Assembly: GCA_025059715.1 (NCBI GenBank)
Contig: JANXCE010000015.1
Location: forward strand, 1 to 45,542
Direction of reading: 5' to 3'
Origin: Caldimicrobium sp.
GTDB taxonomy: Bacteria > Desulfobacterota > Thermodesulfobacteria > Thermodesulfobacteriales > Thermodesulfobacteriaceae
Length of the DNA stretch: 45,542 nucleotides
A program made the translations under genes and the position numbers. This document shows positions 3,406 to 43,627 of this stretch, piece by piece. Numbering within the stretch: the stretch's first letter is position 1; each line of letters starts with the position of its first letter. The notes beneath the pieces are model-generated. The model saw only the letters and a list, made by a program, of their open reading frames with translations. It was not told the origin of the DNA and did not search any database.

Positions 3406-4116
3406 GTGATAGTTCTTTTATTAAGTTTAATTTTTCTCTGGTGGGGGGAAGTGTTAGCAGTTCCCCCTCATCTTCATGGGGTTATACCCCCAGAGATCAC
3501 TCCAGAGAGAGAATATGGGTATTTAAGAAATTCGCTATATGGTTTTCTCCTTGATCGACTTAATAGAACACCACAAATAGTTTTTGTGCCAAGGGAGCAG
3601 AATCAAGTTTCTGATCTCAAAACCCTTTTAAAAAGTAAATTTTTCTTCATATCTCCTGTGCAAATAAGGATGGAGTTAGAGTTAATAGAGATACAAGGGA
3701 AACGGCCTCTTTGGCAATCCATTAAAGAAACTACTGCGGAACAATTTTGGATAGCCTTAGAGACGGAACTTGAAAAGTTAAGACAGCACTTTAAAGAGGT
3801 CCAACCTGTAACTCCTGTGCCAGTAGCTCCTCAGGCTTCAAAGCTTAAAAGGGAAGATAGTCCCTCTTTATGGTCCAGAATAAATCCCTTGAAGGCTATT
3901 TCTAAACTATTTCCTCGAAGAGAAGAACCTTTAAGAGTGAGGGTCCAGGTCCCACCTCCCTCACCTCCCCCTGGTTTTTCTATTCCGCAGTCTCAATCTC
4001 TAACTACCTCAGCGGAGGTTTTAAGTAGGCCCACCCCAGTGAACGAAAAAATACCTGTTATGGGGACTCTTCAGAAAGAACCCTTATTAGGCCCTTCACC
4101 CTGGCAATGGTTTTAA
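3406..4116 (+). CDS. Exported or membrane-anchored proline-rich protein of unknown function
   Basis: The family is not recognised. The 236-residue product starts at a GTG (3406) right after the double stop of ppsA. It opens with a hydrophobic segment (about residues 2-18, ending in VLAVPPH) that looks like a signal peptide or anchor. Residues about 25-125 form a mixed, charged region. From about 125 onward it is rich in proline and basic residues (PVTPVPVAP, VPPPSPPPGF), typical of a flexible periplasmic linker. It lies 21 nt upstream of the ftsB-like gene, so a role at the cell envelope or division site is possible but is only inferred from position. Confidence 0.7.
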   Translation: MIVLLLSLIFLWWGEVLAVPPHLHGVIPPEITPEREYGYLRNSLYGFLLDRLNRTPQIVFVPREQNQVSDLKTLLKSKFFFISPVQIRMELELIEIQGKRPLWQSIKETTAEQFWIALETELEKLRQHFKEVQPVTPVPVAPQASKLKREDSPSLWSRINPLKAISKLFPRREEPLRVRVQVPPPSPPPGFSIPQSQSLTTSAEVLSRPTPVNEKIPVMGTLQKEPLLGPSPWQWF

Positions 4117-4137
4117 ATAATAAAAAATTATTAGGAA

Positions 4138-4452
4138 ATGAAAAAACAGCCGGTTATTTATCTTAAGCCTTATTCTAAACGGAGTAAAAAAAAGAGATTA
4201 AAGAAGATTTTATTGGTAGTTTTGTCGGTGTTAGTTTTTTTTTCTCTAATGGTTTATCTTTTGCTACACTGGATGATTAAAAAAGAGGGAAGGGAATTGG
4301 AAAAATTAAGGATGGAAAATCAGATATTGCGCTCTGAAATAAAGCGCTTTCAAAGCAGTGATGAGGCTTATGAAGAGCTTTTAAGAACTAAAATGGGATA
4401 CATCAAGGAGGGTGAAAAGTTAATAATATATTCAGATCTAAAAAAGAAGTAG
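4138..4452 (+). CDS. ftsB: FtsB/DivIC-type septum formation initiator
   Basis: This is a small bitopic division protein that bridges FtsL and FtsQ at the septum in known systems. The 104-residue sequence has a Lys/Arg-rich cytoplasmic tail (residues 1-24), one membrane helix (about 25-47), and a periplasmic leucine-heptad coiled coil (about 50-75, EGRELEKLRMENQILRSEI). It then has the short ELLRTKMGYIKEGE segment typical of the FtsB/DivIC family (the usual form is ARxxLGyvkpGE). Length and layout fit the family. It lies between the unknown proline-rich gene and ribH on the same strand. Confidence 0.85.
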   Translation: MKKQPVIYLKPYSKRSKKKRLKKILLVVLSVLVFFSLMVYLLLHWMIKKEGRELEKLRMENQILRSEIKRFQSSDEAYEELLRTKMGYIKEGEKLIIYSDLKKK

Positions 4453-30214: not shown

Positions 30215-30694
30215 TTATTTCTGTCTTCTCATCTGAAAGAATTTTTTTAGAAGCTCCATTGCTTCTTTTTCAAGAATGCCCTGTCGAATTTTAATTTGAT
30301 GATTAAATCGCTGATCTAATGGAATTTGATACAAACTTTGGCAAGCTCCGGTTTTAGGATCAGAAGTTGCGTAAATAATCTCTTCGAGGCGAGCAAGAAC
30401 GCAAGCATAAGCACACATGGCACAGGGTTCAAGAGTCACATATAGCCTGCAGCCTAATAGACGATAGTTACCTAACTTTTGGGCTCCCTTTCGTAAGGCT
30501 AATATCTCCGCATGAGCAGTAGGATCACCAAGCTTCAAGATTTGGTTACGGGTCTCTGCAAGGATCTCTCCTTTAGGCGATACCAATACTGCACCCACTG
30601 GAACTTCCTCCTCCTCAAAGGCAAGTTGTGCCTGCGCTAAGGCTTTCTCCATAAAGTATAGGTCTTCTTCCTCAATGAAGTGAAGAGGATTCAT
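30215..30694 (-). CDS. tadA: tRNA-specific adenosine deaminase
   Basis: It deaminates A34 to inosine in tRNA-Arg(ACG). The 159-residue cytidine-deaminase-fold protein has the zinc and catalytic motif TAHAEILAL near residue 59 (HAE) and the second zinc motif LEPCAMCAYA near 89 (PCxxC). Then comes the expected DPKTGACQSLYQ loop. Its ATG overlaps the stop of the ispH fusion gene (ATGA), so it is the last gene of the kdsA operon. An internal Met at 15 is an alternative start. Confidence 0.93.
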   Translation of the reverse strand: MNPLHFIEEEDLYFMEKALAQAQLAFEEEEVPVGAVLVSPKGEILAETRNQILKLGDPTAHAEILALRKGAQKLGNYRLLGCRLYVTLEPCAMCAYACVLARLEEIIYATSDPKTGACQSLYQIPLDQRFNHQIKIRQGILEKEAMELLKKFFQMRRQK

Positions 30695-32355
30695 TTTTTG
30701 AGTAAATAAAGTGCCAAACTAAGCAAGAAGGCCCCAATTTGAGGAAGCAGAATAAGGCTTTCCAAATAGAGAATTTGCCCTAAGGGTCTCTGTTTTAAAA
30801 GATAAACTAAAACTCCCCAAAGGGGAATTAGAAGTAGAAAGAGTAAAAAAGCTGGATCCCCCTTGTGTATAACAAGTCCAAAGAAAGGTAATGCAAGAAG
30901 GGCTAGACCCAATAAAAGAATTTGGTGTCCCTTTTTTTCCTCCATACCTAAAGTTAATATTAAGAAGTTTTTTGGCAAAAAACCATCACTTTGAAGGTAG
31001 ATTAATTCCTTATAGAGATGAAACCAGATAATACTAATAAGGGTATATCCTGCCAGCCAAAAAAAAGTCTCATTCCAATAGGGAAAGAGATAACCCATTA
31101 TTCCCACAAAAAGTAACAGATCCCCCAAGACGAAAAGAGGTTTTTTCATCGAGAGCAAATCAAAAGCTAATATTGATAGGGAAAAGATTGCCAACCAAGG
31201 ATTTAAGAGAAATCCAGTAGTAAAGGCAATAAAACCTGATCCCAGAATTAGGTTTTTTACTAAAAGTTTGTGTCTCTCGATAGTCTTGCCTTTTAGGGGA
31301 TAGTAGGTCGAATAGGAATCTCTTAGAAGATATTGGTAGAGGTTTTTTCTAAGGAGTTGCAGGAAAAAAAGGAAAAGCAGAAGTGTATAGAGTATTTCCT
31401 TGGGAATATTAGTTAGCCAGAGTGAGGTAGCCAGGACTAAAAAAAGGAAAGCAAAGGCTTCATGAAAGGCAAGGATATGAAAAGCTTTGAAGGCACGATA
31501 AAAAGGATTGGTTGCACTTCTTAGTCTATCTACTACTTCGTTTATGAGCCAGTTAGGAGTTGAGGCACCCGCTGTGATTCCCACTTTGGGATAATTTTTA
31601 AGGGTATTCAGGGGGAGCTCTTCTACCTTCTCAATCAGATAAACATCTCTGCTCTCGTTTTGGGCAATTTGAGCTAATCTTACTGTGTTTGCGCTAAATT
31701 TCCCTCCAATCACCACAATTGCTGGACACTCCCTACTGAGCCTTCTCACTTCATTTTGCCTTACTTCAGTAGCATTACAGATTGTATTTATTACCTTCCC
31801 ACCAGGAAAACGAGAGAGTATTTCCTCTGCTAAAAATTTGAAAATTTCCTCATCTTGAGTTGTCTGAGAAAGGATGAGGTAATTATCTAAGGGAGGTAGT
31901 TTTTCAATATCTTGAAAGGAGCTAACCACATATCCCACTCCCTCACAATACCCTAAGATGCCCTTCACCTCTGCATGATCTTTATCTCCAATAATAACTA
32001 CCTTTTTCTGTGCCTCTTTTGCACCTTTAGCTAAAGCCTGCACCTTTAGGACTCTTGGACAGGTTCCATCAATGATGGTATGCCTTTTTTCTAAAGCCTC
32101 CCTCTCCTTAGGCGGGACCCCATGGGCTCTTATTATGCAGGTGCCCTTAGGAAGCTCCTCATTAACATCTTTGATGACCTTTACTCCCAAGCTACTTAAA
32201 AGTTCTAAGGTTTGGGGATTATGAATGAGAGGGCCATAGGTGTAAATAGGAGTCATACCAGAATTTAAGGCCTTTAGAACTAAATTTACCGCTCTTCTTA
32301 CTCCCATGCAAAAGCCTGCCTTTTTTGCTATCTTGATTTCCACCACTCTTTCCAC
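30691..32355 (-). CDS. ispH: HMBPP reductase (IspH) fused to a nine-helix membrane domain
   Basis: Residues 1-285 are IspH/LytB, the [4Fe-4S] enzyme that makes IPP and DMAPP at the end of the MEP pathway. Cluster cysteines are visible at Cys16 (AGFCMGVRRA), Cys99 (IDGTCPRV) and Cys193 (NTICNATEV), with active-site His45, His78 and His127. Normal IspH ends here. This protein continues for about 265 residues with nine predicted membrane helices. That count and the general pattern resemble UbiA-type prenyltransferases, but the Asp-rich NDxxDxxxD motifs are not seen. The frame runs without a stop or shift, so the fusion appears real. Start is a GTG overlapping radC by 28 nt; another GTG three codons in is possible. 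Confidence 0.88.
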   Translation of the reverse strand: MERVVEIKIAKKAGFCMGVRRAVNLVLKALNSGMTPIYTYGPLIHNPQTLELLSSLGVKVIKDVNEELPKGTCIIRAHGVPPKEREALEKRHTIIDGTCPRVLKVQALAKGAKEAQKKVVIIGDKDHAEVKGILGYCEGVGYVVSSFQDIEKLPPLDNYLILSQTTQDEEIFKFLAEEILSRFPGGKVINTICNATEVRQNEVRRLSRECPAIVVIGGKFSANTVRLAQIAQNESRDVYLIEKVEELPLNTLKNYPKVGITAGASTPNWLINEVVDRLRSATNPFYRAFKAFHILAFHEAFAFLFLVLATSLWLTNIPKEILYTLLLFLFFLQLLRKNLYQYLLRDSYSTYYPLKGKTIERHKLLVKNLILGSGFIAFTTGFLLNPWLAIFSLSILAFDLLSMKKPLFVLGDLLLFVGIMGYLFPYWNETFFWLAGYTLISIIWFHLYKELIYLQSDGFLPKNFLILTLGMEEKKGHQILLLGLALLALPFFGLVIHKGDPAFLLFLLLIPLWGVLVYLLKQRPLGQILYLESLILLPQIGAFLLSLALYLLKK

Positions 32356-35902: not shown

Positions 35903-36820
35903 ATGCCCCTTAAAATATATCCACCTGTAATGGATATATATGAATTAGTTGGCAATACACCCCTTATTAACCTAAGTGATTACTTGCAGAATACCAGGAT
36001 CCAGCTATTCGCCAAAGCGGAATGGTTTAATCCGGGAGGGTCAATTAAGGATAGACCCGCTCGAGAAATAATTTTAGCCGCGGAAAAAGAGGGCAAATTA
36101 AATCATAAAAAGAGAATTCTTGATGCTACCTCAGGCAACATGGGTATAGCCTATACACTTTTAGGAAGGGCAAGGGGTTACAAGGTGACCCTTTGTCTTC
36201 CTGAAAATGTCAGCCCTGAAAGAAAGAGATTGTTAAAGATCTTTGGAGCAGAGATTATCTTAACAGATCCACTGGAGAGTATTGACGGTGCTATCATGCT
36301 TGCCAGAAGGCTCTATCAAAGCGATCCAGAAAAATTCTTTTATGCGGATCAATATAGTAATCCCGCCAATGTTTTAGCTCATTACAAAACAACTGGCCCT
36401 GAGATTTGGGAGCAAACCTCAGGAAAGATTACTCATTTCATTGCTGGATTAGGAACCAGTGGAACCCTCATGGGGGTCGGTAAATTTCTAAAGGAAAAGA
36501 ATCCCCACATAAAGTTAATAGGGATTCAGCCTGATGCTCCCTTGCATGGAATTGAAGGCTTGAAACACATGTTAAGCGCCCTTAGACCAAGTATATACCA
36601 AGAGGATTTTTTAGATGAAATTATCTATGTCTCCACTGAAGAGGCCTACCACATGGTTAAGAGGCTCCTCCAAGAGAAGAGTCTTTTTGTAGGAGTATCC
36701 TCAGGAGCAGCGCTGGCAGGAGCTCTTAAGTTAGCTCAAACCCTTTCTGAGGGAGTTATCGTAACAGTTTTTCCCGATAGCGGGCATAAATACCTCAGTG
36801 AAGCCTTCTGGGAGGATTAA
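35903..36820 (+). CDS. cysM: Cysteine synthase, CysK/CysM family
   Basis: This PLP enzyme makes cysteine from an activated serine (O-acetyl- or O-phosphoserine) and a sulfur donor. The 305-residue protein has the PLP-lysine loop FNPGGSIKDRPAR near residue 48, TSGNMGIAYTLLG near 82, GLGTSGTLMGVGKFLKEKNP near 190, and VSSGAALAGALKLA near 268. The family usually has a longer C-terminus; this one is compact, like CysM. The neighbouring JAMM peptidase and ThiS-like carrier match the actinobacterial CysM-CysO-Mec set, so a protein thiocarboxylate may be the sulfur donor. GGAGG precedes the ATG. Confidence 0.92.
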   Translation: MPLKIYPPVMDIYELVGNTPLINLSDYLQNTRIQLFAKAEWFNPGGSIKDRPAREIILAAEKEGKLNHKKRILDATSGNMGIAYTLLGRARGYKVTLCLPENVSPERKRLLKIFGAEIILTDPLESIDGAIMLARRLYQSDPEKFFYADQYSNPANVLAHYKTTGPEIWEQTSGKITHFIAGLGTSGTLMGVGKFLKEKNPHIKLIGIQPDAPLHGIEGLKHMLSALRPSIYQEDFLDEIIYVSTEEAYHMVKRLLQEKSLFVGVSSGAALAGALKLAQTLSEGVIVTVFPDSGHKYLSEAFWED

Positions 36821-36821
36821 A

Positions 36822-37262
36822 ATGCCTCTTTTGTTGCCCAAGCACCTAATGCAAAAGATAAATGCATACTTAGAAGAGACGTATCCTGAAGAGGGATGTG
36901 GCTTCCTCCTTGGTTACCTGGAGAATAACGCATACATCCTCAAGGGAATTTATCCAGTCCCTAATGTCTGGGAGAAAAAAGAGGAAAGGAAAAGAAGATA
37001 TAGTGTTGCTCCGGAAGACTTTCTCAAGGCAGAGAAAGAAGCTCAGAGGCAAAACCTACTTCTCATTGGTATTTATCATTCTCATCCTGATTATCCCCCC
37101 TCTCTCTCGGAGTTTGACAAGGCTAATTCTTGGCCTGATTTTATCTACCTAATAGTTAGCCTTTACAGGGGTAAGGCTCAGGAGGCAAAGGCCTATCTTT
37201 TTAATAGTCATGGAGAATTCAGAGAGATTGCTATTCAAATAACTGAGGAGGTGAAGCAATGA
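36822..37262 (+). CDS. JAMM/MPN+ metallopeptidase (Mec/HcyD/QbsD-like)
   Basis: The 146-residue Zn peptidase has EEGCGFLLGYLEN near residue 18 (catalytic Glu) and the full JAMM motif YHSHPDYPPSLSEFDKA near 85-101 (HxHPx(n)SxxD). Bacterial members next to ThiS-like genes either free cysteine from a carrier (Mec) or trim residues after its GG end (QbsD, HcyD). The ATG at 36822 is 2 nt after cysM with GGAGG correctly spaced; an upstream in-frame start at 36798 lies inside cysM and is less likely. The stop overlaps thrC by 4 nt. Confidence 0.9.
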   Translation: MPLLLPKHLMQKINAYLEETYPEEGCGFLLGYLENNAYILKGIYPVPNVWEKKEERKRRYSVAPEDFLKAEKEAQRQNLLLIGIYHSHPDYPPSLSEFDKANSWPDFIYLIVSLYRGKAQEAKAYLFNSHGEFREIAIQITEEVKQ

Positions 37263-38491
37263 GCTTTATAAAAGGTTTAAAGTGTAGGGAATGTGGAAGA
37301 GCCTATCCTAAAGACCCCCTCTTTGTATGTGAATGGTGTTTTGGACCTTTGGAGGTTGACTATGATTATGAGGCTATCGGAAGGGTTTTAACCCGAAAGG
37401 TCATAGAAGGACGAAATCCCCACATGTGGAGGTATAAAGAGCTTTTACCTATAGAGGGAGAGCCTGTTTGTGGTTTACACACGGGGTTTACACCTCTCTT
37501 TGAAGCTAAGAATTTAGCTCAGGCCTTAGGGATTAAAAGATGCTATGTAAAGGATGACTCGGTTAATCATCCCACTCTCTCTTTCAAGGATAGGGTAGTG
37601 GCGGTAGCACTTTCTCGAGCTAAGGAATTTAACTTTAATACTGTGGCCTGCGCTTCCACAGGTAACTTAGCAAATGCAGTTGCTTCCCATTCCCGTGCCA
37701 GTGGATTTGAGTGCTATGTCTTTGTGCCCTATGATCTTGAGCTATCTAAAATAGTTTCCTCTCTTATATACGGGGTAAACTTAGTTGCGGTGGAAGGTAA
37801 TTATGACGATGTGAACCGGCTATGTGCGGAGATTGCTATGAATCTTCGCTGGGCCTTTGTAAATGTAAACTTAAGGCCCTATTATGCGGAAGGGTCTAAA
37901 ACTTACGGTTTTGAGATCGCGGAACAACTGGGTTTCAGAGCCCCTCAAAACATCGTTATACCTGCTGCCTCAGGCTCTCTGGTGACAAAGATTTATAAGG
38001 GCTTACAGGAATTTTATCAACTGGGTTTAATCCCAGAATTCAAGACTCGCTTTTTCTTAGCTCAAGCAGAGGGTTGCTCTCCCATTGTTCAAGCTTTTAA
38101 AGAGGGGTCTCCTATTATTAAACCGGTGAAACCTAAAACTATTGCCAAATCTATTGCCATAGGTAATCCTGCCGACGGGATTTATGCCCTGGATATCCTA
38201 AGAAAGACCAAGGGCTATGGGGAAGCGGTTTCCGATGAGGAGGTGGTCGAAGGTATTAAACTCTTAGCAGAAACAGAGGGTATTTTTACTGAAACCGCAG
38301 GAGGAGTAACTGTTGCGGTCACTAAGAAACTCATCGCTAAGGGTATCATAAAGAGAGACGAAGAGGTAGTAATTTGTATCACTGGAAATGGGCTTAAGAC
38401 CCAAGAGGCGGTGCAAAATCATCTAAAGGAGGTGATTAGGATAAAACCCTCTTTGGAAGAATTTAAAAAACACTTAAAAGGAGGTGCATAG
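37259..38491 (+). CDS. thrC: Threonine synthase or threonine-synthase-like PLP enzyme
   Basis: The 410-residue protein has an N-terminal zinc ribbon with Cys9, Cys12, Cys24 and Cys27 (CRECGRAYPKDPLFVCEWC) and a PLP fold. DDSVNHPTLSFKDRVV near residue 100 carries the PLP Lys. ACASTGNLANAVASHSRA lies near 130 and VIPAASGSLV near 235. The standard reaction makes threonine from O-phosphohomoserine. It sits inside a sulfur-carrier operon, between the JAMM peptidase and ThiS-like genes. I therefore consider an additional or alternative role in homocysteine formation from the same substrate; this is inference. Confidence 0.88.
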   Translation: MSFIKGLKCRECGRAYPKDPLFVCEWCFGPLEVDYDYEAIGRVLTRKVIEGRNPHMWRYKELLPIEGEPVCGLHTGFTPLFEAKNLAQALGIKRCYVKDDSVNHPTLSFKDRVVAVALSRAKEFNFNTVACASTGNLANAVASHSRASGFECYVFVPYDLELSKIVSSLIYGVNLVAVEGNYDDVNRLCAEIAMNLRWAFVNVNLRPYYAEGSKTYGFEIAEQLGFRAPQNIVIPAASGSLVTKIYKGLQEFYQLGLIPEFKTRFFLAQAEGCSPIVQAFKEGSPIIKPVKPKTIAKSIAIGNPADGIYALDILRKTKGYGEAVSDEEVVEGIKLLAETEGIFTETAGGVTVAVTKKLIAKGIIKRDEEVVICITGNGLKTQEAVQNHLKEVIRIKPSLEEFKKHLKGGA

Positions 38492-38493
38492 CT

Positions 38494-38778
38494 ATGGCAG
38501 TAATAGTTAGGATTCCTACTCCACTACTCTCTTTGACTGGTGGTCAGAGAGAGGTGCAAGCAGAGGGCTCTACTTTAATGGATCTTATTGAGGATCTGGA
38601 AAGGAGATACCCTGGGATGAAGGAGAGATTATGCGATGAAGAGGGTAATCTGAGGCGCTTTGTGAATTTTTTTGTGAACGATGAAGATGTGCGTTTTCTC
38701 GAGGGTGCTAAGACTTCCCTAAAGGATGGAGATGTGGTCTCCATCGTGCCTGCCATTGCAGGTGGATTAAATCCTTAA
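38494..38778 (+). CDS. ThiS/MoaD-like sulfur carrier with capped C-terminus (GG-LNP)
   Basis: The 94-residue beta-grasp protein has the MoaD/CysO pattern: VIVRIPTPLLSLTGGQREVQ at the start, DLIEDLERRYPGMKERLCD near residue 30, VRFLEGAKTSLKDGDVVSIV near 68, and the end VPAIAGGLNP. Active carriers end in free GG, which is adenylated and converted to a thiocarboxylate. Here three residues (Leu-Asn-Pro) follow the GG, so processing is needed. The JAMM peptidase two genes upstream is the obvious candidate. GGAGG precedes the ATG, 2 nt after thrC. Confidence 0.92.
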   Translation: MAVIVRIPTPLLSLTGGQREVQAEGSTLMDLIEDLERRYPGMKERLCDEEGNLRRFVNFFVNDEDVRFLEGAKTSLKDGDVVSIVPAIAGGLNP

Positions 38779-38792
38779 AAAGGAGGGAGAAT

Positions 38793-39032
38793 ATGCCTAA
38801 GATGTGGTTACATCTCATTTTTCCTGAAGAGCAAATTAAAAAACCGGTAATCTATAGGATGGCAGTAAAATATGGGGTTATTCCCAATATACGCCGGGCT
38901 AATGTTACCGAAACAACGGGAGAAGTGGTCTTGGAGCTCAGTGGCAAAAAGGAGGCCTTAGAAAAGGCAATTAAGTATTTGAAGAGGCTCAAAATCAAGG
39001 TTGAACCTATTACCGGAGACATTATAGAGTGA
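38793..39032 (+). CDS. NIL-domain protein
   Basis: The 79-residue protein consists almost wholly of a NIL domain (KMWLHLIFPEEQIKKPVIYR, then IPNIRRANVTETTGEVVLEL). The domain occurs at the end of the MetN methionine transporter and in proteins tied to homocysteine synthesis in anaerobes. It has no Fe-S motif of its own. Its position between the ThiS-like carrier and the ThiF-like enzyme supports a link to sulfur amino acids, perhaps as a sensor or binding partner. GGAGG precedes the ATG. Confidence 0.88.
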   Translation: MPKMWLHLIFPEEQIKKPVIYRMAVKYGVIPNIRRANVTETTGEVVLELSGKKEALEKAIKYLKRLKIKVEPITGDIIE

Positions 39033-39042
39033 GGTGTTATTT

Positions 39043-40182
39043 ATGAGTGAGGTCACCCTTAGTAAAGAGGAAATCTACAGATATAGCAGGCATCTCTTGA
39101 TTCCTGAGGTAGGAATAAAGGGGCAAAGGAGACTTAAGGCTTCAAAGGTTCTTATAATTGGCACTGGAGGACTTGGCTCTCCAGTTGCCCTCTACTTAGC
39201 GGCAGCAGGTGTGGGAAAGATAGGATTAGTGGACTATGATACCGTAGATGAAAGTAATCTCCAGAGACAGATACTTCATTCCCAACACACCATTGGCGTT
39301 CCCAAAGTAGAGTCCGCTAAAGAGAGACTCTTAGAGATAAACCCCTACATAGAGATCGAAACCTATCCAGTGCTTCTAAATAGAGATAATGTTTGGGATA
39401 TTTTAAAGGATTACGATCTGGTGATAGATGGCACTGATAATTTTCCTACAAGATATCTCTTAAATGATGCCCTTTACTTTTTGAACAAGCCTTTGATTTA
39501 TGGAAGTATTTTTCGTTTTGAGGGTCAGGTGACTGTCTTTTATGCCCAGAGGGGTCCCTGTTATAGGTGTCTTTATCCAGAGCCCCCACCTCCTGGAACT
39601 GTGCCTTCCTGTGCGGAAGGAGGAGTTTTTGGAGTGTTACCAGGGGTAATTGGAGCCCTTCAGGCAACTGAGGCCATAAAAATCCTTTTGGGTATAGGCA
39701 AACCCCTGATTGGCAAGCTTCTACTCTACGATGCCCTACACATGGAATTTAGACAACTTAACCTCAGGAAGGATCCCCATTGTCCTCTCTGCGGAGAAAG
39801 GCCCACCATTAGAGAACTCGTAGATTACGAAAATTTCTGTGGCGTGGAGCTACAACCGTCAAGCCCTGAGTACGAAATCTCGCCCCAAGAGCTTAAAGAG
39901 AAATTGAGCAGGGCTACTTCTCTGCAGATAATAGATGTTAGAGAACCCCATGAATGGGAAATTTGCAATCTTCCAGGGAGTTTATTTATTTCCTTAGAGG
40001 AGCTACCTTCAAGGATAGCGGAGCTTGATCCCACTAAGGAATACATAGTGGTATGCAAGGTGGGTAAACGCAGTTATAATGCCTTAGAGCTTTTGCTCGG
40101 AGCAGGCTTGAAAGCCTATCACTTAAAAGGAGGTTTGAATGCCTATGCTAAGGAAGTAGATCCAGAGATGCCCCTGTATTAA
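39043..40182 (+). CDS. moeB: ThiF/MoeB-like E1 adenylyltransferase fused to rhodanese
   Basis: It adenylates the C-terminal Gly of the sulfur carrier and supplies sulfur. The 379-residue protein has RYSRHLLIPEVGIKGQRRL near residue 10, the nucleotide-binding GTGGLGSPVALYLAAAGVG near 38, and DNLQR-like ESNLQRQILH. Zinc pairs are CYRC and CPLC, and the VPSCAEGGVFGVLPG loop lies near 188. The C-terminal rhodanese (about 280-379) has the active loop CKVGKRS. This is MoeBR/MOCS3-like architecture. The ATG at 39043 is preferred over a TTG at 39034 because GAGGTG is well placed. Confidence 0.92.
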   Translation: MSEVTLSKEEIYRYSRHLLIPEVGIKGQRRLKASKVLIIGTGGLGSPVALYLAAAGVGKIGLVDYDTVDESNLQRQILHSQHTIGVPKVESAKERLLEINPYIEIETYPVLLNRDNVWDILKDYDLVIDGTDNFPTRYLLNDALYFLNKPLIYGSIFRFEGQVTVFYAQRGPCYRCLYPEPPPPGTVPSCAEGGVFGVLPGVIGALQATEAIKILLGIGKPLIGKLLLYDALHMEFRQLNLRKDPHCPLCGERPTIRELVDYENFCGVELQPSSPEYEISPQELKEKLSRATSLQIIDVREPHEWEICNLPGSLFISLEELPSRIAELDPTKEYIVVCKVGKRSYNALELLLGAGLKAYHLKGGLNAYAKEVDPEMPLY

Positions 40183-40330: not shown

Positions 40331-41188
40331 TTAGAAGATGTAGTCAAATAAGAGGCCACCAAGTAGAGCCAAAATAAACCAGGATGTTACATAGTAAATA
40401 ACTAATTTTAAAGGGAGAAATTTGAGAACGGCAGTGACAGTGGGAAGACAGATTCCGCTTCCAGCCAAGACAAAGACCATAGCTTGGCCTGAGGTTAAGC
40501 CTACCTCCATTAGGGCCTTAGCTATGGGCACTTCTTCACCAGAACATACATATATAGGTATAGATATTATAGCAATTAAAAAATAGGCCCAGGGATGACC
40601 TGCTAAACCCTTAAGGCTTTCCGGATTTAAAAAGGTTACCATAAGGGAGGCTATAATTAAGCCTATCAGGAGATACTTTCCTATACTTAGAGCCTCCCCT
40701 TTAAACTCTATAAAGATCATTTTAAAAGATCCTTTCTCCCTTGGAGCATACTCTACCTCAAGAGAAGGAGAGTTCTTTTTAAATAGACCCAGGCTCAAAT
40801 AGGCAATAACAAAGGAGAGGATAAAGGTGAAAAGGAGTCTAAAGAGTGTAAATTTAATGCCCAAAAGTCCAAGGGTTAAAAAAATTGAGACTGGAGAGAT
40901 CACCGGTCCAATCATCAAAAAAGATAACACCGGAGCATAATTTCGGGAAAGGTTATTTATAAAGTAGGCTAAGGGGACGACAGAGCAGGAACACACTGGC
41001 AAAAGCCCAGCTAATAAACCTGTTAGTAGTGGAGCGGATTTAGGAGAAGCTAAGGCTCTTTTTAAGTGATTGGGACCAAGATAGACCTTTAAAACACTGG
41101 TTACAAATACCGCAAGTAAAAAATAGGGTATTATCTCAACACTATATTCCCAAAAATTGGAAAAAAATTTATACAAAAGTTCCTTCAA
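40331..41188 (-). CDS. ArsP/UPF0718-type membrane permease
   Basis: The 285-residue polytopic protein has about eight helices. It has the family hallmarks LLPVCSCSVVPLAYFI near residue 59, MIGPVISPVSIFLTLGLLGI near 92, and IPIYVCSGEEVPIAKALMEVG near 210, ending with LAGSGICLPTVTAVL. Relatives export organoarsenicals or thiol-reactive metals; the substrate here is unknown. The only available start is TTG at 41188, without a clear ribosome binding site. It lies 44 nt after the selenoprotein stop on the same strand, so the two are probably in one operon. Confidence 0.88.
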   Translation of the reverse strand: MKELLYKFFSNFWEYSVEIIPYFLLAVFVTSVLKVYLGPNHLKRALASPKSAPLLTGLLAGLLPVCSCSVVPLAYFINNLSRNYAPVLSFLMIGPVISPVSIFLTLGLLGIKFTLFRLLFTFILSFVIAYLSLGLFKKNSPSLEVEYAPREKGSFKMIFIEFKGEALSIGKYLLIGLIIASLMVTFLNPESLKGLAGHPWAYFLIAIISIPIYVCSGEEVPIAKALMEVGLTSGQAMVFVLAGSGICLPTVTAVLKFLPLKLVIYYVTSWFILALLGGLLFDYIF

Positions 41189-41232
41189 TGTTAAACTAAA
41201 TTAGTCAATTTGTGTTTAATAGCGCATATTTT

Positions 41233-41691
41233 TTAATAGCGTATTTTTTGGGGATCCATACCGCCACAGCCGTTTTTAGCAAAGGGCATTTCACACCTTC
41301 CTTTATAACATCCATCTCCAGAAAACCCAGAGGGATTAATGAAAGCAAACCATTTTTGAACTCCGGCCCTTACTTCCTCGGCACTATATCCCTCTTTAAT
41401 CATCCATTTTGCCAGACCCATCCAGGATCTGTACATGTTGCATTCGCATCAGCAGGTTAGCGCGGTATGATCGGCACAACAAGGAGCAGGAATCTTAGAA
41501 AGGGCTCTTTCCAACACCTTTTGCTCCTTGGCAGTGAGTTTTAATTGAAAATAATAACCCATAAACCTCTCAGTCTCTCCTTTAACTTGACGAAATTCCG
41601 GAAGTGCTCGGGAGGAACCAATTAACGGCAAAGATAAAATGGCCAGGGCAAGGAAAAAAAGCAGAGTCTTTAAACCTAATAATTTAGTCAT
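41233..41691 (-). CDS. Candidate exported selenoprotein with in-frame TGA (Sec81)
   Basis: Two minus-strand ORFs in the same frame are separated only by a TGA at 41451-41449. Read through, they give 152 residues. AGGAGGTG sits right before the ATG at 41691. Residues 5-28 form a signal peptide or anchor, a helical part follows (35-67), then PCCADHTALTC, Sec81, then CECNMYRSW. After that comes a helical domain (86-120) and a Cys-rich end (GDGCYKGRCEMPF, NGCGGMD). Both halves have the same style and the TGA sits between cysteines. A SECIS-like stem-loop lies 24 nt downstream. The family is not named by me; a thiol/selenol redox or metal-binding role outside the cytoplasm is inferred. It lies between iscU and a permease. 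A nonsense mutation of a Cys codon is the alternative. Confidence 0.8.
41413..41431 (-). promoter_or_regulatory. SECIS-like stem-loop downstream of the in-frame TGA
   Basis: On the minus strand, CAGATCC (41431-41425), loop TGGAT (41424-41420), GGGTCTG (41419-41413) form a 7-bp stem with one G-U pair. The loop begins 25 nt after the TGA and has G as its second base. This matches the published bacterial SECIS pattern: a small apical loop with an early G, about 16-37 nt from UGA. The element lies in the coding sequence, as in bacteria. Confidence 0.68.
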
Positions 41692-41722
41692 AAAACACCT
41701 CCTAAAGAAGTAATCTTTTTGC

Positions 41723-42097
41723 TTATTTAGCCCCCTTTTTAGCTTTAAAATCATCTATGGCCTTTCTTAAGGCCTCTATTCCAAGCACGGAGCAGTGAAC
41801 TTTTTGCGAGGGAAGCCCCCCTATCTCCCTTAATATATCCTCTTTCGTTAAGGACAGAGCCTCTTGAAGCGATTTTCCCTTAACCATCTCCGTTAAGATA
41901 CTTGATACCGCAATAGCCGCCGCACAGCCAAAGGTCTTAAATTTAATATCCTCTATTCTATCATCCTTGACCTTAATAAAAAGATACATCATATCCCCAC
42001 ATACAGGATTTCCCTCTATACCAATTCCATCGGCATCTGGGATTTCTCCCACGTTTTTAGGATTCATAAAATGTTCCATTACCTTTTGGCTATACAT
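41723..42097 (-). CDS. iscU: Iron-sulfur cluster scaffold protein (IscU/NifU N-terminal type)
   Basis: This is a cytoplasmic scaffold on which Fe-S clusters are assembled. The 124-residue protein has YSQKVMEHFMNPKNVGEIPD at its start and the three ligand cysteines in EGNPVCGDMM (near 33), FKTFGCAAAIA (near 58) and KVHCSVLG (near 101). It lies 30 nt after iscS on the same strand and just before the selenoprotein gene. The many Fe-S enzymes in this window (Apr, Qmo, Nuo, IspH) would be clients. Confidence 0.95.
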   Translation of the reverse strand: MYSQKVMEHFMNPKNVGEIPDADGIGIEGNPVCGDMMYLFIKVKDDRIEDIKFKTFGCAAAIAVSSILTEMVKGKSLQEALSLTKEDILREIGGLPSQKVHCSVLGIEALRKAIDDFKAKKGAK

Positions 42098-42127: not shown

Positions 42128-43327
42128 TTAATGAGGTGCACAGGCTCCCCATTTGTCCATATCTTTCCAGCCCTCTTTAAAAGGAGAGAGCTCTCTAAGT
42201 CTACTTACCACTTGCGGGAATTCAGAAACAACATAGTCAATATCTTCTTCGTTGTTATACTTGCTTAAGGCCATAAGGATTGAGCCCTGAATCAAGTGAG
42301 CAGGATACCCCATCGCACTAAGAACAGGAGAAGCCTTAAGGGCCTTTGAAGTGCAGGTTGATCCGCTGGATACGTAGATTCCCCTGTGAGCTAACATAAG
42401 TAACAGGGCTTCACCTTCGATAAATTCCACTATGAAACTTGCATGCCCTGGAAGCCTCTTCTCTGGATGCCCTGTTAAGTGAAGATGCTCAACCTTTTCT
42501 TGAAGGTTTTTAATTAGCTTCATTGAAAGATCACTCAAGTGGCTCTTCCATTGGGGTAGATTTTCTCTCACCAAGCGAGCGGCTTCTCCTAAACCCACAA
42601 TAGCGGGCACATTTTCCGTTCCTCCTCTGCGGCCTCCCTCTTGTATGCCTCCATAGATGAGGGGTTGTATTCTTACTCCCCTTTTAACATAGAGGGCTCC
42701 TGCTCCCTTAGGACCATAGAAGATATGGGCCGATAGAGAGAGACTGTGAACCCCGAGTTTATCCACCTTTACCTCCATTCTGCCTATAGCTGCCACACAA
42801 TCGGTATGCACAACTGCTCCTACCTTGGAAGCCAGTTTGACTACCTCTTCAATAGGCTGAATAGTACCCACCTCAGGATTAGCAAGTTGAATGGAGATCA
42901 AAATTGTCTCCTCCCGCAGGGCTCTTTCAAGAAAATTTAAGTCAATCACTCCATATCTATCTACAGGCACAAAGGTTACCTCAAAACCCTCCTTTTCTAA
43001 GGCTCTTGCAGGGTTGGTGATGGAGTGATGTTCCACAGCAGACACAATTATATGGTTCCCCTTTTTCCTATTAGCATAAGCTAAACCTCTTAGGGCAAAG
43101 TTGTTTGCCTCAGTTCCTCCAGAGGTAAAGATTAACTCGGAAGGCGAGGCTCCAATTAGTTTGGCCACCTCCTCGCGAGCCAACTCCACTGCCTCTCGGG
43201 CTTTGACTCCCATTGGATAGGGACTTAGGGCATTTGCAAAATTCTCCCTAAAATAGGGCCACATCTTTTCCAGCACCCTTTCATCCAGCAAGGTGGTTGC
43301 CATGTTATCTAAATAGACCTCTCTCAC
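42128..43327 (-). CDS. iscS: Cysteine desulfurase (IscS/NifS)
   Basis: This PLP enzyme takes sulfur from cysteine as a persulfide for Fe-S assembly and sulfur trafficking; NifS-like enzymes can also deliver selenium. The 399-residue protein has YLDNMATTLLDERVLEKM at the start, SAVEHHSITNPA near 98, and the PLP-lysine segment FYGPKGAGALYVKRG near 200. The active Cys loop SSGSTCTSKALKASPVL lies near 320. It has a C-terminal extension ending WGACAPH. The GTG start overlaps the tusA-like stop (GTGA) behind GGAGG. Confidence 0.95.
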   Translation of the reverse strand: MREVYLDNMATTLLDERVLEKMWPYFRENFANALSPYPMGVKAREAVELAREEVAKLIGASPSELIFTSGGTEANNFALRGLAYANRKKGNHIIVSAVEHHSITNPARALEKEGFEVTFVPVDRYGVIDLNFLERALREETILISIQLANPEVGTIQPIEEVVKLASKVGAVVHTDCVAAIGRMEVKVDKLGVHSLSLSAHIFYGPKGAGALYVKRGVRIQPLIYGGIQEGGRRGGTENVPAIVGLGEAARLVRENLPQWKSHLSDLSMKLIKNLQEKVEHLHLTGHPEKRLPGHASFIVEFIEGEALLLMLAHRGIYVSSGSTCTSKALKASPVLSAMGYPAHLIQGSILMALSKYNNEEDIDYVVSEFPQVVSRLRELSPFKEGWKDMDKWGACAPH

Positions 43328-43575
43328 TTTAGCCTCCTTATATACATTTTGTATACCTCTCCATCTTCAATAACACCTACAAATTCCTGCTCAAAGATCT
43401 CGCACCAGCGAGGCACATCCTCTAAAGCCCGATCATAGTCCGTTATCAGTTCCAGAATCTCCCCGGGGTTGATTTTCTTTATAGCGTCATTTAATTCCAA
43501 TAGATGTATGGGACACATGAGATGGACTATGTCTACAGTATGATGAACTTGGGGAGGTTCCTTTAAAAAACGCAT
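43324..43575 (-). CDS. tusA: TusA/SirA-family sulfur-carrier protein (CPxH variant)
   Basis: The 83-residue protein has the small TusA fold. The active-site stretch VHLMCPIHLLELNDAIKKI near residue 20 is followed by INPGEILELITDYDRALEDV, then a C-terminal strand. The canonical motif is CPxP; here the second Pro is His (CPIH), while the reactive Cys remains. It begins the operon tusA-iscS-iscU-selenoprotein-permease, fitting transfer of sulfur from IscS. The ATG at 43575 is preferred over a GTG at 43602 because AAAAGGAG is 8 nt upstream. Confidence 0.87.
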   Translation of the reverse strand: MRFLKEPPQVHHTVDIVHLMCPIHLLELNDAIKKINPGEILELITDYDRALEDVPRWCEIFEQEFVGVIEDGEVYKMYIRRLK

Positions 43576-43627
43576 CTTCTCTGCTCCTTTTAAAAGTGGC
43601 ACTCATTAGCTCAACTTATTTACTTAA

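Follow-up and report, generated by a model that had tools for sequence, protein, structure and literature searches.

Selenoprotein genes are systematically mis-annotated, and the locus described here raises the question of whether two small minus-strand open reading frames that share a frame and are separated by a TGA codon represent two genes or a single selenoprotein gene. An earlier note on this DNA had argued for one exported selenoprotein. The window, i.e. the whole stretch of DNA that was analysed, comprises 45,542 nucleotides of Caldimicrobium sp. contig JANXCE010000015.1. Read directly and in read-through translation, its minus strand from 41691 to 41233 forms a single gene of 152 codons plus a TAA, with 80 codons starting from the ATG at 41691-41689, the TGA at 41451-41449, 71 further codons and the TAA at 41235-41233. 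The translated junction reads A-L-T-C-[TGA]-C-E-C-N. All the elements that had been described are present in the sequence, including a strong ribosome-binding site, AGGAGG, at 41703-41698. The proposed signal peptide corresponds to a signal-like N-terminus, whose layout, but not its letters, is common to the four homologs described below. The plus-strand ORF at 41212-41460, which the note considered a wrong call, has no Pfam match. In its present form, the Caldimicrobium gene appears as two ORFs too small to draw notice. The features of the locus are as follows.

41233..41691, minus strand: exported protein predicted to contain selenocysteine (Sec), 152 codons plus TAA (read-through frame; four further genomes with this layout; purifying selection before and after the TGA)
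41449..41451, minus strand: TGA very probably decoded as Sec81 within C80-U81-C82-E83-C84 (this codon is TGA in 5/5 genomes; opposite Cys in a rhizobial family)
41698..41703, minus strand: ribosome-binding site AGGAGG, 6 nt 5' of the ATG (read directly)
41605..41691, minus strand: signal-peptide-like N-terminus with basic start, hydrophobic core and SSRA/LPEF (translation)
41413..41431, minus strand: candidate bacterial SECIS element, a hairpin with stem CAGATCC/GGGTCTG and loop TGGAT (distance from TGA to loop 24 nt; kept in the genus; in agreement with the published model)

With U81 included, the 152-residue protein starts with the signal-like stretch and continues as ...IPAPCCADHTALTC-U-CECNMYRSWMGLAKWMIKEGYSAEEV...GCYKGRCEMPFAKNGCGGMDP. 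The mature form would have approximately 120 residues, with the C-U-C-x-C centre and PCC, CY.G.C and GCGG motifs that are conserved in the alignment.

A homolog search covering 198 genomes recovered the same gene from four further members of the genus, with identities of 98% (G003, Caldimicrobium sp. SKYB93, JANXDB010000026.1), 62% (G005), 62% (G002) and 60% (G001); a contig-level scan with the gene matched the 98% relative only. Each homolog has exactly one internal stop, which is always a TGA and always at the same codon. As five genomes have this TGA in common, it is genuine and not a sequencing error. Identity across the junction is approximately 60%, and downstream of the TGA dN is ~0.19-0.27 against a dS of 1.0-2.2 between the distant species, dS being saturated upstream of it. 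The codons beyond the TGA are thus under strong purifying selection, and the lack of conservation that the earlier note had named as grounds for abandoning its reading is not what the four genomes show. Furthermore, the Met that follows the TGA here (CNMY) is a Leu in the other species (CNLY), which makes a separate downstream gene unlikely. As for the remaining genomes of the genus that were searched, a decayed remnant, with TGA, TAG and TAA inside, persists in the same neighbourhood in G004 (L016:1501-1641), and the gene was not found in G006. SelA, tRNA-Sec and SelD are all kept in both.

The host genome (1.84 Mb, 80 contigs, 99.6% complete, Caldimicrobium-like) holds all four components of the Sec machinery for which the earlier note had called: SelA (E 1e-160), SelB, identified by its winged-helix domain, a tRNA-Sec with a UCA anticodon, the selC product, and SelD. 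The selD gene has an in-frame TGA of its own near the N-terminus of its product, as it does in 6/7 genomes of the genus, and it is an internal control for UGA being read as Sec.

L091 (G000:C44:53272-54204): SelD, itself a selenoprotein in the genus (TASG-U-ASKLPQEF)

The hairpin that had been claimed downstream of the TGA, with a 7-bp stem, a 5-nt loop with G in second position and a distance typical of bacterial SECIS elements, is indeed there, and it is conserved in the five genomes. The bSECIS model given in PMC13188914 specifies a spacing of 16-37 nt, a loop of 3-9 nt with G in one of its first two positions and a free energy of at most -7.5 kcal/mol. CAGATCC-TGGAT-GGGTCTG agrees with it, with -9.2 kcal/mol for the hairpin alone, which holds for only 23 of the 1440 TGA triplets in the window (~1.6%, perfect-stem scan). 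The 54-nt stretch that contains it folds at -14.2 kcal/mol, with a modest z of -1.96. All five genomes have a 6-7 bp stem and a UGGAU/C loop that starts 24 nt after the TGA, and one pair changes from A-U to G-C between genomes, a compensatory replacement that is silent on both sides. Three of the four homologous hairpins pass the -7.5 kcal/mol threshold of that model, and the bare stem of G002, at -6.6, falls below it. The covariation score was reached by 54/500 shuffles, five sequences being too few for this statistic. For this reason, and because the fold energy is modest, the hairpin supports the selenocysteine reading without carrying it.

The earlier note could match the product with no named selenoprotein, and our searches agree. 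The protein has no family match in Pfam (E<=10), NCBIfam (E<=1: 0 families) or the PDB, no counterpart among the entries compared in the 119-family selenoprotein table of PMC13188914, and no homolog in the viral contigs searched. No literature joining 'selenoprotein' and 'Caldimicrobium' was found. The family, in which Sec is unusually flanked by Cys on both sides, is therefore absent from current catalogues as far as these were compared, having no NCBIfam model and no entry in the compared part of the 2026 catalogue. A single-sequence AlphaFold2 model was poor (pLDDT 54), and a fold search with it gave no matches.

Distant relatives were first reached through weak tblastn matches (E 0.04-0.2). 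On plasmids, the Caldimicrobium protein matched an unannotated rhizobial family (E 0.2), and two further Caldimicrobium members matched the same family, i.e. three separately in all. This family comprises WP_115422038.1 of Sinorhizobium sp. M14 pSinB and its relatives, with the motif PCCCQCWRW.VYGGLAKYLI, and it sits in copper/ScsC-CcdA loci of Alphaproteobacteria.

L038:3650-4228; L070:3007-3540; L071:3992-4561; L073:3911-4492; L074:3950-4531: unannotated family of Cys-rich proteins that look exported, with GSCC[SA]PMD.H.Y and GPCCCQCWRW as its two CC motifs, mostly rhizobial plasmid loci with SCO, DsbA and CcdA genes
L075:about 3990-4230, plus strand: unannotated fragment of this family in Burkholderia vietnamiensis pBVIE02, with an upstream stop, SPCCCHCWRWKVHGELAKFL

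Profile comparison by hhalign of the Caldimicrobium and rhizobial families gave a probability of 96.2 and an E of 2.3e-9, with Sec81 opposite a Cys. The score, 60.9, compares with a maximum of 25.6 among 200 column-shuffled controls; with every Cys masked it was still 40.7, the controls then reaching 24.5 at most. Over ~65 residues, the two families have in common L[TS]..EQ, C-C/U-C-x-C, GL.K..I and GCGG, together with a signal-like N-terminal stretch. The rhizobial proteins have Cys for Sec and lack the PCC insertion and the CY.G.C loop; at the N-terminus they carry an additional domain, in which there is a second CC motif. In the ungapped block, C-U-C-E-C is paired with C-C-C-Q-C, which leaves the PCC of the Sec protein without a counterpart. 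The alternative, pairing PCC with PCC, needs a gap inside the motif, and hence the Sec/Cys pairing appears to be the simplest reading of the alignment, although not the only one. The position that the note had proposed to compare is TGA in all five genomes with the intact gene and would be Cys in the rhizobial family. A Sec form would in this way be linked to a hitherto unnamed Cys family of rhizobial copper-resistance loci, so that what the residue does could be tested directly on the two versions side by side.

Other likenesses are more distant. A profile comparison with the CYCXC family (seleno)protein OS_HP4 (NF041379 / PF13798, PCYCGC), some members of which are selenoproteins, gave 77% and an E of 2e-5 (score 34.5, where 150 shuffles reached no more than 22). 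This similarity is suggestive, and the two have in common a C-x-C-x-C motif followed by a ...G...eIR... helix. In OS_HP4, however, Sec is in a downstream UxxC motif according to the table in PMC13188914, rather than inside C-U-C-x-C, and Tyr, Phe or Trp lies opposite Sec81. HMMER gave no match of the protein to NF041379 or PF13798, and none to NF041379 in G000, G001, G003 or G006. A CcmH-like origin, considered on account of the pattern LxCxCxCN...G.S.EEV, was discarded, with no Pfam match to CcmH/NrfF (PF03918) and no CcmH in the genus. Weak matches in genomes G194, G304, G131, G394, G114, G019 and G031 fall in other frames of unrelated genes and look like chance; those to Streptomyces and Acinetobacter plasmids or phages correspond to no matching gene or lie within acnB.

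Could the TGA nevertheless be a real stop, between two separate small genes or within a pseudogene created by a nonsense mutation? UGA does terminate translation in this genus. In the window, the IspH-like gene at 30691-32355 (minus strand) ends with a TGA at 30691, which the ATG of the next gene overlaps, and the frame beyond it is closed; the G002 homolog of the Sec gene itself ends with a TGA. Against a stop at codon 81 stand the recurrence of this in-frame TGA in five genomes, the purifying selection on what lies beyond it, the absence of a conserved start codon after it, and the full Sec machinery of the genome, which together make this explanation highly improbable. Read-through by Trp suppression, general reassignment of UGA or frameshifting would equally account for an open frame, which is the one observation in its favour. 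As UGA is a true stop nearby, it is not generally reassigned: it is rare but genuine, ending one of the 27 long ORFs of the window, with 19 TAA and 7 TAG for the others. The Sec genes, the Cys found at this site in the distant family and the SECIS-like hairpin 3' of the UGA also argue against such a mechanism, which we regard as barely credible. We consider it very probable, judging from the sequence comparisons, both that Sec is inserted at UGA81 and that the protein represents a new family. UGA81 would be decoded by SelB and tRNA-Sec, aided by the hairpin just downstream. None of the observations that the earlier note held capable of overturning its proposal of one selenoprotein was made, and the comparison across five genomes supports it.

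What might this selenoprotein do? Its surroundings in the window are the following.

43324..43602, minus strand: TusA-type sulfurtransferase, upstream (PF01206 E 3e-17)
42128..43327, minus strand: NifS/IscS-type cysteine desulfurase (PF00266; best NCBIfam model TIGR03402, below its cut-off)
41723..42097, minus strand: IscU/NifU-type Fe-S scaffold, directly upstream of the Sec gene (PF01592 E 9e-48; TIGR03419 185.4 bits)
40331..41188, minus strand: ArsP_1-type permease, directly downstream of the Sec gene (PF03773 E 1e-41)

The iscS-iscU-permease operon of the earlier note is thus correct for this genome, but it holds only for this species pair: where flanks were read, the order tusA-iscS-iscU-Sec gene-permease recurs in the 98%-identical genome alone, and other neighbourhoods occur elsewhere. 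Upstream of the Sec gene in G001 and G005 are genes for small secreted proteins, one of which matches Metal_resist (above the cut-off in G005), and downstream of it is one for a small exported protein, OB-fold-like in G001. A two-component system, with a sigma-54 response regulator and a histidine kinase, lies opposite the Sec gene in G001, and an ACR3-like transporter, below the family cut-off, faces it in G002. As for the Cys family, the rhizobial genes adjoin those for multicopper oxidase, DUF411, SCO, DsbA-, CcdA- and RND-type efflux proteins, and the Burkholderia pBVIE02 fragment adjoins multicopper oxidase, heavy-metal transport and MerR genes; Microvirga is an exception to this metal/thiol-redox setting. 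The Sao system (SaoC/SaoE) and the SO_0444 Cu/Zn efflux selenoproteins (PMC13188914) likewise combine a small Sec protein with an adjacent ArsP_1-type permease and have a metal or organometal theme. Unlike in those systems, the permease here is far below the cut-offs of both nearest NCBIfam models (SO_0444 Cu/Zn efflux, 128.8 bits for a cut-off of 300; SaoE, 98.3 for 325), and the Sec protein matches no Sao model. The theme common to these neighbourhoods, we infer, is the handling of soft metals and thiols in the cell envelope.

Most likely, the mature protein acts in the periplasm through its thiols and selenol, binding soft metal or metalloid ions, e.g. Cu(I), or processing them by redox reactions; its Cys relatives, encoded in copper-resistance and ScsC-CcdA loci, presumably work in the same way. 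The C-U-C-x-C motif would then be an envelope centre for soft metals and/or thiol redox chemistry. We lean slightly towards metal handling as the role on the basis of gene neighbourhoods, which vary by species and, for plasmids, may be enriched for metal resistance. The more specific proposal that Sec81 is a copper or soft-metal ligand, with a selenolate between two thiolates where a copper-handling CCCxC site has its middle Cys, is tentative and rather unlikely as it stands. Alternatively, Sec81 of the same selenoprotein may be not a metal ligand but a redox catalyst, engaged in disulfide/selenenylsulfide exchange with a thioredoxin-like partner in the envelope. According to PMC13188914, selenoproteins that await characterisation are for the most part believed to have redox roles; the Cys family adjoins DsbA- and CcdA-type genes, and Sec is placed between two Cys. 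Conversely, neither a thioredoxin-like fold nor a known redox domain was found with Pfam, NCBIfam or the poor AlphaFold2 model, the Cys family also has multicopper oxidase, SCO, DUF411 and RND efflux genes as neighbours, and the neighbours in Caldimicrobium are metal-stress-like rather than Dsb-like. Pure redox catalysis is plausible, with a likelihood that we place somewhat short of even.

Two further observations made by eye concern other genes of the window. The IspH-like protein encoded at 30691-32355 (minus strand) appears to be fused to a long C-terminal membrane domain. On the plus strand, positions 35903-40182 hold a cluster that resembles those for sulfur-carrier-dependent amino acid synthesis, with cysteine synthase-like, JAMM-like, threonine synthase-like, MoaD/ThiS-like and ThiF-rhodanese members.
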